From Phycisphaerales bacterium (GTDB taxonomy: Bacteria; Planctomycetota; Phycisphaerae; Sedimentisphaerales; Anaerobacaceae): a stretch of 44,640 bases of DNA. The notes beneath the pieces are model-generated. The model did not search any database, was not told the origin of the DNA, and saw only the letters and a list, made by a program, of their open reading frames with translations. This document shows, one piece after another, positions 17,999-34,304 of the stretch. The stretch lies in NCBI GenBank assembly GCA_030602885.1, contig JAUVYV010000030.1, forward strand, positions 1-44,640, written 5' to 3'. Numbering within the stretch: the first letter of the stretch is position 1; every line of letters begins with the position of its first letter. A program made the translations under genes and the position numbers.

Positions 17999-18023
17999 CT
18001 CCCCGAGTAGGACTCCGGGCTTC
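17999..18023 (-). repeat. Outer 25-bp direct repeat of the GIY-YIG cassette
   Basis: Identical over 25 bases to 18397-18421. Read on the minus strand it is GAAGCCCG followed by the last 17 bases of the tRNA-Asn gene (GAGTCC...GGGGAG). The TGA stop of the GIY-YIG gene overlaps its first two bases. Confidence 0.85.
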
Positions 18024-18282
18024 AATTATTCTTTTCCAGAGAATCTCTCAACATCTGTTTTAAGGTTGACTTTCCTTTTGTTGTCTTGAAATATCGCTCT
18101 CTTCTCATGGCATCGGCCTGAGACAGGTGTGCTTCATAATAAATTAGCTTTAACGGCCGTCTCGATTTTGTACTGGTATTTTTTCCTGAATTGTGTTCTT
18201 TCAGCCTTCTTTTTAACTCTCCTGTAAAACCGATGTAGAACTTGTTGTCTTTCTGGCTTAATAGGACATAAACATAGTACAT
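18022..18282 (-). CDS. Small GIY-YIG nuclease encoded in a tRNA-associated cassette
   Basis: The 86-residue protein is a minimal GIY-YIG domain: MYYVYVLLSQ (first strand), KFYIGFT (second strand), ELKRRLKEHNSG with the conserved Arg and His, then RRPLKLIYYEAH and RRERYFKTTKGKSTLKQ. This short type is common and uncharacterised in many bacterial lineages. The ATG at 18282 is preferred to a TTG two codons earlier; no good ribosome binding site is seen. Perfect 25-bp direct repeats derived from the tRNA-Asn 3' end flank the gene, and its stop overlaps one of them, so the gene and the repeats move as a unit of 398 bp. A role as homing or transposition nuclease is inference. Confidence 0.85.
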   Translation of the reverse strand: MYYVYVLLSQKDNKFYIGFTGELKRRLKEHNSGKNTSTKSRRPLKLIYYEAHLSQADAMRRERYFKTTKGKSTLKQMLRDSLEKNN

Positions 18283-18289
18283 AGGCAAT

Positions 18290-18396
18290 TATGGGAGATG
18301 CCTCTATAAATGGAATCTACCCCACAAACCACAATGGATTTATGGGAACCCCGAACCACATTGGGTTCAGGGGTGTGAACCCAACGCGGTTCACAC
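18290..18396 (-). repeat. Hairpin array upstream of the GIY-YIG gene
   Basis: Three adjacent imperfect palindromes of the same design: GGTGTGAACC/GGTTCACACC at 18371-18396, GAACCA...GGGTTC at about 18350-18368, and AACCACAATGGATTT at about 18327-18342. Each has a GAACC/GGTTC-like core, the third with changes that largely keep pairing. They fill most of the cassette between the inner repeat and the GIY-YIG start. Confidence 0.6.
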
Positions 18397-18421
18397 CTCC
18401 CCGAGTAGGACTCCGGGCTTC
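18397..18421 (-). repeat. Inner 25-bp direct repeat (second copy of tRNA-Asn 3' end)
   Basis: Identical to 17999-18023. On the minus strand it closes the hairpin-chain element: GGTTC, then a GGGC-GAA-GCCC hairpin, then the tRNA-Asn 3' end. It lies 205 bases below the real tRNA 3' end. Confidence 0.85.
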
Positions 18422-18427
18422 GCCCTA

Positions 18428-18544
18428 GAACCTAAATTTGCTTCCGCAAATTTCCATAGGGGCTCTGCCCCTCTGGCGGCAGCCAAGCTGCCTGTCACCC
18501 CGACGACGTGGGAAAATTCTTTTCCCACACCCTTTGAGGTTCGA
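18428..18544 (-). mobile_element. Hairpin-chain element, copy 1 (tRNA-Asn)
   Basis: Read on the minus strand it runs from TCGAACC to GGTTC and contains five features in a row: GGGAAAA/TTTTCCC hairpin, GTCGTCGGGGTGACAGG, GGCAGC-TTG-GCTGCC hairpin, CGCCAGA with GGGGC-AGA-GCCCC hairpin, and AAATTTGC-GGAA-GCAAATTT hairpin. The same order is found at 34163-34285 beside tRNA-Ser. One stem differs by paired changes (AAATTTGC versus AAATCCGC, with matching partners), showing that the fold is conserved rather than the bases. No coding sequence lies in the core. Taken as a small, probably non-autonomous element targeting tRNA 3' ends. Confidence 0.7.
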
Positions 18545-18556
18545 GCCCTATCGATA

Positions 18557-18600
18557 GAAAAACTTCAGGGCAGCAAGGCCAGAAGGCCTGCTGCCCTGAA
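18557..18600 (-). terminator. Intrinsic terminator of tRNA-Asn
   Basis: A 12-bp stem TTCAGGGCAGCA/TGCTGCCCTGAA with an inner GGCC-TTCT-GGCC hairpin, followed on the minus strand by GTTTTTC, begins two bases after the tRNA 3' end. Confidence 0.75.
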
Positions 18601-18639
18601 ACTCCCCGAGTAGGACTCGAACCTACAACCTAGCGGTTA

Positions 18640-19223
18640 CAGCTTCCTCCAGGTTTCCCTGAAGACTGGACTATCTCTTCACCATACACTTCGCCTGCGC
18701 TCAGTGCTTAGGTGCCGGGCGCTTATTAGGGCTTATTGGCACAGGCCGCCTCACCCTATAGTCTCTGCACCTTCCTGTTCACTTGTTAACCTGCCCTGTG
18801 TGAACAGGCTTGGCTCAGGATTACCATCTCCGCATCAGCAGAATTAGGCTTCCCTGAATTCACCCGGTTTTTCATCCTGATGTTTCCATCAGGAGCTGCA
18901 ACTTTGGCATGAGTTTCTCGATGACAGTTGGCACAAAGCAGGACACATTTAGCCAATTCCTTTTCGACACTCTTCCAGGATCTTGCATAACCCTTCTCCG
19001 AAAGACCAAAATTCTTATCTGAATCACTCAAATGATGAAACTCCAGGGCTTCTATGCATCTGTCATAGCCACATACTTCGCATTTGGCGCCTTTTGCAGC
19101 TATTGCCATTTGGCGAATCTTTTGTCTTCGCTTCCTGACCGCTGAAATCAGATATTCTCGTCTTTCGGCATATGTCCTCGTGTCCTTCTTGGCCAACTAT
19201 CACCTCCTTTCATGCCCTGTTTT
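18640..19223 (-). other. Group I intron (IC3-like) in the tRNA-Asn anticodon loop
   Basis: The 584-nt intron shows the conserved core on the minus strand. The P segment AATCCTGAGCCAA is at 18810-18822, nearly identical to that of cyanobacterial tRNA-Leu introns. A P6-type hairpin CCTGTTCAC/GTGAACAGG lies at 18774-18808. The R segment GTGCAGAGACTA is at 18759-18770 and the S segment AAGAGATAGTCC at 18668-18679; GACTA and TAGTC pair to form P7. A P9-like hairpin with a GAAA loop follows, and the last base is G. An HNH endonuclease gene fills the 5' part and its end overlaps the P segment. The expected U-G pair of P1 is not obvious (CTGT can pair with ACAG as U-A), which is the weak point. Confidence 0.85.
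18786..19196 (-). CDS. HNH homing endonuclease encoded in the group I intron
   Basis: The 136-residue protein starts at TTG, six bases after a very strong AAGGAGGTGA, and 28 nt into the intron. A basic N-terminal helix (YLISAVRKRRQKIRQMA) precedes a zinc-ribbon HNH domain: CEVCG, then LEFHHL (first His pair), LAKC-VLLCANCHRETHA (second CxxC and final His). These are the metal and catalytic residues of HNH nucleases. Its last codons (EMVILSQACSHRAG) are also the intron's P segment and P6 arm, so coding and folding constraints overlap. By family knowledge it would cut an intronless tRNA-Asn gene to spread the intron. Confidence 0.85.
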   Translation of the reverse strand: MAKKDTRTYAERREYLISAVRKRRQKIRQMAIAAKGAKCEVCGYDRCIEALEFHHLSDSDKNFGLSEKGYARSWKSVEKELAKCVLLCANCHRETHAKVAAPDGNIRMKNRVNSGKPNSADAEMVILSQACSHRAG

Positions 19224-19289
19224 ACAGCCGCTCGCTCTACCAATTGAGCTATCGGGGAACTAAACAACTCAAAATATCATACCTTTCTG

Positions 19290-19358
19290 CTCGAATCTAC
19301 AACATAACGGTTAATCCCGACTCGTCGGGGCTCGCTCTACCAATTGAGCTATCGGGGA
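19290..19358 (-). pseudogene. Degraded tRNA-Asn copy
   Basis: The first 28 bases equal the real tRNA-Asn 5' half (acceptor strand, D arm). The anticodon arm is then replaced by a CCCGAC-GA-GTCGGG hairpin, after which TTAACCG...GTTGTAG-TTCGAG resumes with three differences. The match stops in the T loop and no 3' acceptor strand follows, so it cannot fold as a tRNA. It retains the spliced TTAACC sequence, meaning it derives from an intronless copy. It starts exactly 100 bases above the intron-bearing gene. Confidence 0.75.
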
Positions 19359-19622
19359 ATACGCATCTTCGGGGCCAATTGGGCGGCCCAATTAGACTAT
19401 TTTGCCATATTATTCTAAATTCGGCCAATCCTGTCAAGCTGCATCTGCTCTTTTGCCCGATATTATAAAAAATCGCCACAATACTGGACAATGTGCCGTC
19501 TGTATCATATACTAAAGGGTTCGGAATATTTAACTGCATTGGCTGCCGTGTCGATATAGAGGCAGCCCGAGAGAACTCAGTTGCTGTGATTGTTGTTTCT
19601 TCGTTCTCTGCTTTTAGCTGAA
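19359..19622. other. Intergenic region between tRNA-Asn region and kinase gene
   Basis: No gene or clear promoter is recognised. It includes an AT-rich TATTATAAAAAAT stretch at about 19460 that may form part of the kinase promoter. Confidence 0.3.
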
Positions 19623-33769: not shown

Positions 33770-34011
33770 AATCTCAGCTAACTATGTTTATTTGTCTTTC
33801 ACTGTCTTGTTCAATTCAGCAATGCGCAACTCCAGCCGTTTTATTTCTCGTGTGATCCTAATTCTTGTGCATAATACCTCCTGGAACAACCGACAACACC
33901 TGAAAATTGACGCCTTCACGCCGAAATTACAGGTTCCCTGCTTGAAAATCAATCATCAATAGTAAATAATCAATACCTGTCCGCCATCTGTTTGGCGGAA
34001 TCAATGGCCAC
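33770..34011. other. Intergenic region upstream of tRNA-Ser
   Basis: No gene is seen. A small inverted repeat CCGCCA/TGGCGG lies near 33980-33998, ahead of tRNA-Ser. Confidence 0.3.
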
Positions 34012-34099
34012 GGAGAGGTGTCGGAGTGGCTTATCGAGCAGCCTTGGAAAGGCTGTGTAGGGCTTGTCCCTACCGCGGGTTCGAATCCCGCCCTCTCCG
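34012..34099 (+). tRNA. tRNA-Ser(GGA)
   Basis: Acceptor GGAGAGG/CCTCTCC, discriminator G, anticodon arm CAGCC-TTGGAAA-GGCTG giving GGA, a long class II variable arm (TGTAGGGCTTGTCCCTACC) and T arm CGGG-TTCGAAT-CCCG. CCA is not encoded. Its 3' end (25 bases) is repeated at 34280-34304 with one change. Confidence 0.95.
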
Positions 34100-34162
34100 T
34101 TAAACAGCAGAGAGTATCTTTGCGAACTGAGCGGCTCTAACTACCGACGGGATTATCACGAT

Positions 34163-34285
34163 TCGAACCCTAAAGGGGTTTGAGGAAAGGATTTCCCCAA
34201 GTCGTTGGGGTGACAGGAGCGAGCATAGCGAGCGACGCCAGAGGGGCAGAGCCCCTATGGAAATCCGCGAAGCGGATTTGGGTTC
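34163..34285 (+). mobile_element. Hairpin-chain element, copy 2 (tRNA-Ser)
   Basis: It begins TCGAACCC and ends GGTTC, with the same hairpin order as copy 1: GGAAA/TTTCC, GTCGTTGGGGTGACAGG, GACGCCAGA with GGGGC-AGA-GCCCC, and AAATCCGC-GAA-GCGGATTT. The third module differs from that of copy 1. Beyond GGTTC the sequence continues as a copy of the tRNA-Ser 3' end. No open reading frame of the nuclease type is present, so this copy is non-autonomous. Confidence 0.7.
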
Positions 34286-34304
34286 CAATCCCGCCCTCTC
34301 CGTT
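34280..34304 (+). repeat. Second copy of the tRNA-Ser 3' end
   Basis: 24 of 25 bases equal 34077-34101 (T arm and acceptor strand). The single difference turns TTCGAAT into TTCCAAT. It lies 203 bases below the original, much like the 205-base spacing at tRNA-Asn. It resembles an attachment-site duplication. Confidence 0.85.

Follow-up and report, generated by a model that had tools for sequence, protein, structure and literature searches.

At positions 18428-18544 of the window, by which we mean the whole stretch of 44,640 nucleotides analysed here, lies a non-coding sequence which folds into a row of hairpins and recurs in inverted orientation at about 34160-34285. This raises the question of what such a sequence is, whether its fold is maintained, and how it came to lie behind two different tRNA genes. 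The two sequences (copies 1 and 2; Table 1) and a third copy located behind tRNA-Val in the same genome are representatives of an element of roughly 150 bases (100-180 bases across the family). In tRNA orientation, each window copy is composed of a left arm, X', hairpin H1, a box (GGGGTGAC), hairpins H2, H3 (CCAGAGGGGCnnnGCCCCTATGG) and H4, and half a T-arm (GGTTC). This is followed by hairpin H5 in copy 1 and, in both window copies, by a displaced end of their own tRNA. The initial annotation described the chain of hairpins; it missed that they belong to a family which is mobile, matches its targets and occurs in several phyla.

Table 1. Coordinates of the two element copies and their tRNA genes in the window
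Feature	Position	Strand	Remark
Resident tRNA-Asn(GUU), with a group I intron inside (about 18640-19223)	18601..19259	-	ARAGORN; Rfam RF00028
Terminator-like hairpin and GTTTTTC, between tRNA-Asn and copy 1	18563..18600	-	fold z -5.9; unlisted by a simple scan
Element copy 1, from X' (left arm) to the half T-arm at the right	18428..18549	-	read along tRNA-Asn; R1 covariance model 99.7 bits
Copy 1 left arm X' (AGGGCTCGAACCT)	18537..18549	-	12/13 positions are the reverse complement of the tRNA-Asn T-arm
Copy 1 hairpin H1, 9 pairs, 3-base loop	18508..18528	-	strongest covariation of the element
Copy 1 conserved box GGGGTGAC	18494..18501	-	
Copy 1 hairpin H2	18478..18492	-	sequence and length vary among copies
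Copy 1 hairpin H3 (CCAGAGGGGCnnnGCCCCTATGG)	18454..18476	-	covariation
Copy 1 hairpin H4 ("last stem" of the initial annotation)	18434..18453	-	
Copy 1 hairpin H5, within the displaced T-arm loop	18415..18427	-	
Displaced second tRNA-Asn 3' end (copy 1)	18397..18414	-	
Resident tRNA-Ser(GGA)	34011..34100	+	
Element copy 2, behind tRNA-Ser(GGA)	34160..34285	+	
Displaced tRNA-Ser 3' end (copy 2)	34286..34302	+	16/17

A comparison of the two window copies had suggested compensatory changes in H4, and these are present: AAATTTGC/GCAAATTT (18434-18441/18446-18453) corresponds to AAATCCGC/GCGGATTT (34261-34268/34272-34279), two positions having changed together with their partners. The loops are of three or four bases, as described. 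For the stem GTGGGAAAA/TTTTCCCAC versus TTGAGGAAA/TTTCCCCAA, said to keep pairing while changing length, the pairing is kept but the change in length is not quite right, since both stems have 9 pairs, with one A.C mismatch in copy 2. Fold z-scores obtained with RNA parameters are -6.5 and -5.4 for the two strands of copy 1 and -3.3 and -3.6 for those of copy 2; with DNA parameters they range from -5.3 to -6.5.

Two window copies alone are thin evidence, whereas the wider set goes far beyond chance. The initial annotation had made its claim of a fold conserved by selection dependent on covariation in wider alignments, and significant covariation is found there. A3, a MAFFT alignment fitted to no structure, has 98.1% paired cells and a covariation score of 0.207; shuffles score 0.091, and slid partners do not exceed 0.119. 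A 72-copy alignment, A4, is biased in favour of the model because it was fitted to it; here two-sided changes occur in 15 of the 18 tested pairs and a covariation score of 0.330 is obtained, compared with 0.126. Relatedness was allowed for by placing changes by parsimony on a FastTree tree. This yields 51 compensatory events, with 9 of the 18 pairs significant after Bonferroni correction, whereas controls in which partners were slid by one or two columns give 1-4 events and no significant pair. H2 was left out of the tested structure and hence provides an independent test. It occurs as 64 distinct sequences among 76 copies. Its outer pair encloses conserved tandem G.A pairs and, of 26 distinct main-form copies, 24 have G-C, T-A or C-G there, compared with a mean of 9.8 on permutation (0 of 10000 permutations). 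The hairpin chain covaries, and selection maintains its fold.

Several features bear on the strand concerned. Along the tRNA-sense strand there are 17 G.T cells versus 5 A.C cells (10 versus 3 in H1 and 7 versus 2 in H3), an excess not seen in H1 and H3 of the smaller family alignment alone (4 versus 5), and the foot of H1 carries a conserved G.T/T.G pair of pairs. Together with the tandem G.A pairs, these point to the tRNA-sense strand as the one that folds. The raw folding energies point the same way in 63 of 65 thinned copies; yet because the composition-corrected difference is weak (p 0.04), however large the raw one, this comparison is not relied on. As to the earlier suggestion of an RNA or single-stranded DNA (ssDNA) intermediate, the selected fold stands and a single-stranded form, be it RNA or ssDNA, is favoured by the tandem G.A, the conserved G.T and the 17 versus 5 cells. 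In several copies, among them copy 1, the tRNA is separated from the element by strong terminator-like hairpins. These speak against read-through from the tRNA as a source of RNA, an idea which is thereby weakened. No promoter-like site was found at copy 1.

Most copies are found 3' of tRNA or tmRNA genes in a fixed orientation; 42 distinct copies have such a gene no more than 130 bases upstream of them and on the same strand. When reverse-complemented, X' corresponds to the T-arm of the copy's own tRNA or, in another group, to its variable loop and T-stem. Its mean score is 11.1 against its own tRNA and 7.3 against permuted tRNAs, with 0 of 20000 permutations reaching the observed value, an exact probability not to be over-read since the copies are related by descent and are not independent; the same-strand control is flat. 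Rare T-arms such as GCCGTTCGACTCGGC are matched by X' as well. At the right end the T-arm recurs, its loop often bearing a small hairpin (H5-type in 24 copies, by a simple pattern count), followed by the displaced 3' end of the copy's own tRNA. This piece corresponds to the own tRNA 3' end at at least 15 of 17 positions in 35 of 40 copies (mean 0.92, compared with 0.60 for permuted tRNAs). As the right end supplies a T-arm and a second tRNA 3' end, the resident tRNA stays whole.

Some copies depart from this arrangement. Two are chimeric, L023 (Asn/Arg) and L131 (Ala/Asp), their right tRNA end being derived from another tRNA and joined at the T-loop. An own-ended subfamily in one Omnitrophota genome (L152, L153 and L159) is located directly 5' of tRNA-Ala, -Gly, -Tyr and -Pro. 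Finally, a sister subfamily is present in multiple copies in two small-genome MAGs (L106, L108, L117, L128, L135, L141, L142, L145, L150, L154 and L155).

To judge from their insertion sites, the copies are mobile DNA. The sister subfamily (G487 and G488) has fixed ends and occupies mostly non-tRNA sites. Comparison of an occupied locus (L155) with an empty one (L106) reveals CGTGCTTG|TGCC split by an element which itself ends in CTTG; insertion is exactly 3' of CTTG with no further target duplication, and the left flanks (n=16) are mostly YTTG. An empty site with exact junctions was found for the sister subfamily only and none for the T-arm subfamily. In genome G026, the ortholog of the window tRNA-Ser site (copy 2) has the same downstream gene alongside and the core is absent. 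Other copies are truncated, arranged in tandem or located immediately 5' of a tRNA.

With BLASTN, 20 of the 89 host-family genomes were seen to contain copies. Using R1, a covariance model derived from 21 copies of the family, and one pattern scan of genome contigs, the same core was detected in Omnitrophota, an Elusimicrobia MAG, an Uhrbacteria MAG and other MAGs; the core match in a Holophagaceae MAG is weak. These loci led to thirteen further genomes, in which there are 1-10 copies per genome. The distribution is patchy: among 392 sampled genomes of the host phylum, the only match besides the host genome was a doubtful one of 51 bases, and a pattern search of 30 genomes of the wider phylum returned the element in the family member only. 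This patchiness and the spread over phyla suggest horizontal transfer. Orthology across species is seen for some copies (L003/L005, L024/L029). No copy was matched in viral contigs (searched with two patterns), plasmids or phages, and no description of the element was found in the literature searched. L072 and L074, which matched the pattern in betaproteobacteria, seem to be chance matches; the covariance model did not confirm them.

How might such an element move? We see about even chances that it is non-autonomous and gene-less, mobilised in trans as a folded single strand, probably ssDNA, with a left arm matching the target. The moving strand would more likely be ssDNA than RNA, and an enzyme supplied in trans would recognise the conserved GGGGTGAC/H3 core. 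Pairing of X' with the target strand would set the place of insertion, in the manner of the IS200/IS605 guide but over a greater length; X' could instead arise as a side effect of insertion, by inverted copying of the target. The T-arm would be targeted because it is present in every tRNA, and the small hairpin in the displaced T-loop may mark a used site, preventing tRNA function or fresh targeting. We entertain more tentatively the possibility that these elements form a new class, gene-less and mobile, finding sites by base pairing through a protein-binding core and a target-matching arm, and spreading across phyla via the T-arm with the tRNAs left intact.

Candidates for the enzyme were sought among the genes of the carriers. 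PF01797 (Y1_Tnp) is absent from nine carriers (G481, G487, G488, G490, G493, G028, G029, G030 and G032), which are MAGs and may be incomplete; some of the carriers devoid of Y1_Tnp hold 5-9 copies. A Y1/RAYT transposase was rejected as a constant partner, none being found in these nine genomes, and no core was found with model R1 beside ten sampled Y1 genes. Reverse transcriptase was also rejected as a partner, being present in 3 of 19 carriers only. A GIY-YIG protein is not an obligatory partner since it is neither linked nor universal: it lies near one of 29 family copies (that of the window), with one more case elsewhere. Neither an autonomous relative of the element nor its enzyme was found.

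Other explanations share parts of this evidence. The folded form could be an RNA, a structured transcript which is reverse transcribed or acts in trans, the DNA copies being retro-products. The strand-specific G.T and tandem G.A pairs fit such a transcript, as do some GNRA-like loops and a full-length, below-threshold likeness to the RF02937 sRNA in four copies. It is nevertheless rather unlikely, given the few carriers with a reverse transcriptase, the terminator-like hairpins separating tRNA from element in several copies, the lack of a promoter-like site at copy 1 and the exact insertion, without longer duplication, of the sister subfamily. Homing by double-strand-break repair, in which a GIY-YIG or similar nuclease would cut T-arms and repair would copy in the element and create the displaced tRNA end, appears improbable. 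GIY-YIG insertions at tRNA-Asn, tRNA-Pro and others do leave similar displaced, hairpin-interrupted tRNA pieces, one of them adjoins copy 1, and most carriers have a stand-alone GIY-YIG. Yet the linkage noted above is confined to the window's copy and one case elsewhere, two carriers possess solely a UvrC-type GIY-YIG, and repair requires homology whereas one core is found at many different tRNAs.

The occurrence of one core at many tRNAs, each copy with its own tRNA end, likewise weighs against a miniature tyrosine recombinase island using the tRNA 3' end as an ordinary attachment site, with the repeats as attL and attR. Displaced tRNA 3' ends are the expected residue of such an integration, but the left end is an inverted T-arm, one subfamily lies outside tRNAs at an exact CTTG site and no integrase adjoins the copies, which makes this explanation very improbable. 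That the element belongs to the host, as a conserved 3' trailer or terminator for tRNA expression or maturation, would account for its constant place and orientation behind tRNA genes and for the orthologous copies, but we find it scarcely credible in view of its patchy presence (20/89 genomes), the empty sites and truncated copies, the different tRNAs used in each genome and the copies that lie apart from tRNAs or immediately 5' of one.

Movement as a folded single strand, the reading we prefer, invites comparison with known systems. Elements of the IS200/IS605 family (Y1 HUH) insert 3' of a short motif and leave no target duplication, recognition occurring by DNA pairing (PMC7290912). They and PATEs, their ends-only derivatives, resemble the element in their subterminal hairpins and fixed orientation, and they have an arm pairing with a target motif (PMC7290912), to which X', complementary to its target, may correspond as a guide. 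The sister subfamily shares their mode of insertion, behind a short motif and with no duplicated target. In contrast, the matching arm is of 10-14 bases, compared to the 4 of the IS200/IS605 guide, and the element has a displaced tRNA 3' end and a long conserved internal core. Moreover, membership of IS200/IS605 fails because the Y1 transposase was not found in nine carriers. The element can also be likened to REP/REPIN sequences and their RAYTs, as these are short palindromic repeats probably moved in trans. REPs are set apart by description: the element has few copies, of 100-180 bases, with several hairpins and tied to tRNAs. Mitochondrial double-hairpin elements, RHEs and GC clusters are gene-less hairpins of sporadic occurrence whose enzyme is unknown (PMC2800124, PMC4478555); compared by description, they differ in being mitochondrial, and the sections of these reports considered here mention no tRNA-matching arm. 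By eye, integron attC has the GTT core common to T-arms and differs in the remaining box. We file the element with the small palindromic mobile elements.

Searches of Rfam gave nothing above threshold, and no group I or group II intron model matched the element, the sole intron match being in the neighbouring tRNA-Asn. Four copies resemble RF02937 (Clostridiales-2) at 22-29 bits (best 28.7, against a gathering score of 58.6), whereas most tested copies have no match. The full-length matches are at L001 1539-1615, L060 5083-5163, L083 2298-2373 and L100 85-161, and they share with RF02937 the order of parts: GGGTG hairpin, GGGTG..CAG, stem, CG(T/C)C..AGGG. RF02937 is possibly a distant relative, and the likeness serves only as a lead, one towards RNA. 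No RF02937 match was obtained in four relatives and 14 control genomes.

Bacterial islands land most commonly in tRNA genes. An element without genes that uses many tRNAs, with an arm matched to each and the tRNA left whole, would, if true, be a new solution to the problem of finding a safe site. The matching arm leads to the prediction that a changed X' would retarget the element, and the sister subfamily is suited to finding the enzyme. The element occurs in groups known mainly from metagenomes and puts displaced tRNA ends next to tRNA genes.

The neighbourhood of copy 1 contains further insertions. The palindromes upstream of the GIY-YIG gene had been thought to follow the pattern of the element. 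They exist (z -5.9) but do not match the element model and belong to a different, GIY-YIG-carrying insertion at tRNA-Asn. Small GIY-YIG genes directly 3' of tRNA-Asn are present at 17999-18396 in the window and at L031-L034, L050, L054, L056, L058 and L059, and in the displaced tRNA-Asn pieces behind them short hairpins interrupt the T-loop or the anticodon arm. They apparently constitute a separate family of tRNA-homing insertions. Other GIY-YIG genes with partial tRNA copies alongside (L040-L042, L045-L049 and L052; L175; L043; L057) are located before tRNA-Pro, inside a duplicated tRNA-Asp 5' half, and behind tRNA-Ser and tmRNA. The group I intron, which occupies the anticodon loop of tRNA-Asn(GUU), includes an ORF with an HNH-like CxxC..HH..CxxCH pattern and no Pfam match. 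Upstream of this resident gene, at 19296-19360, is a second, broken tRNA-Asn in which a hairpin, CCCGACGAGTCGGG, replaces the anticodon arm.
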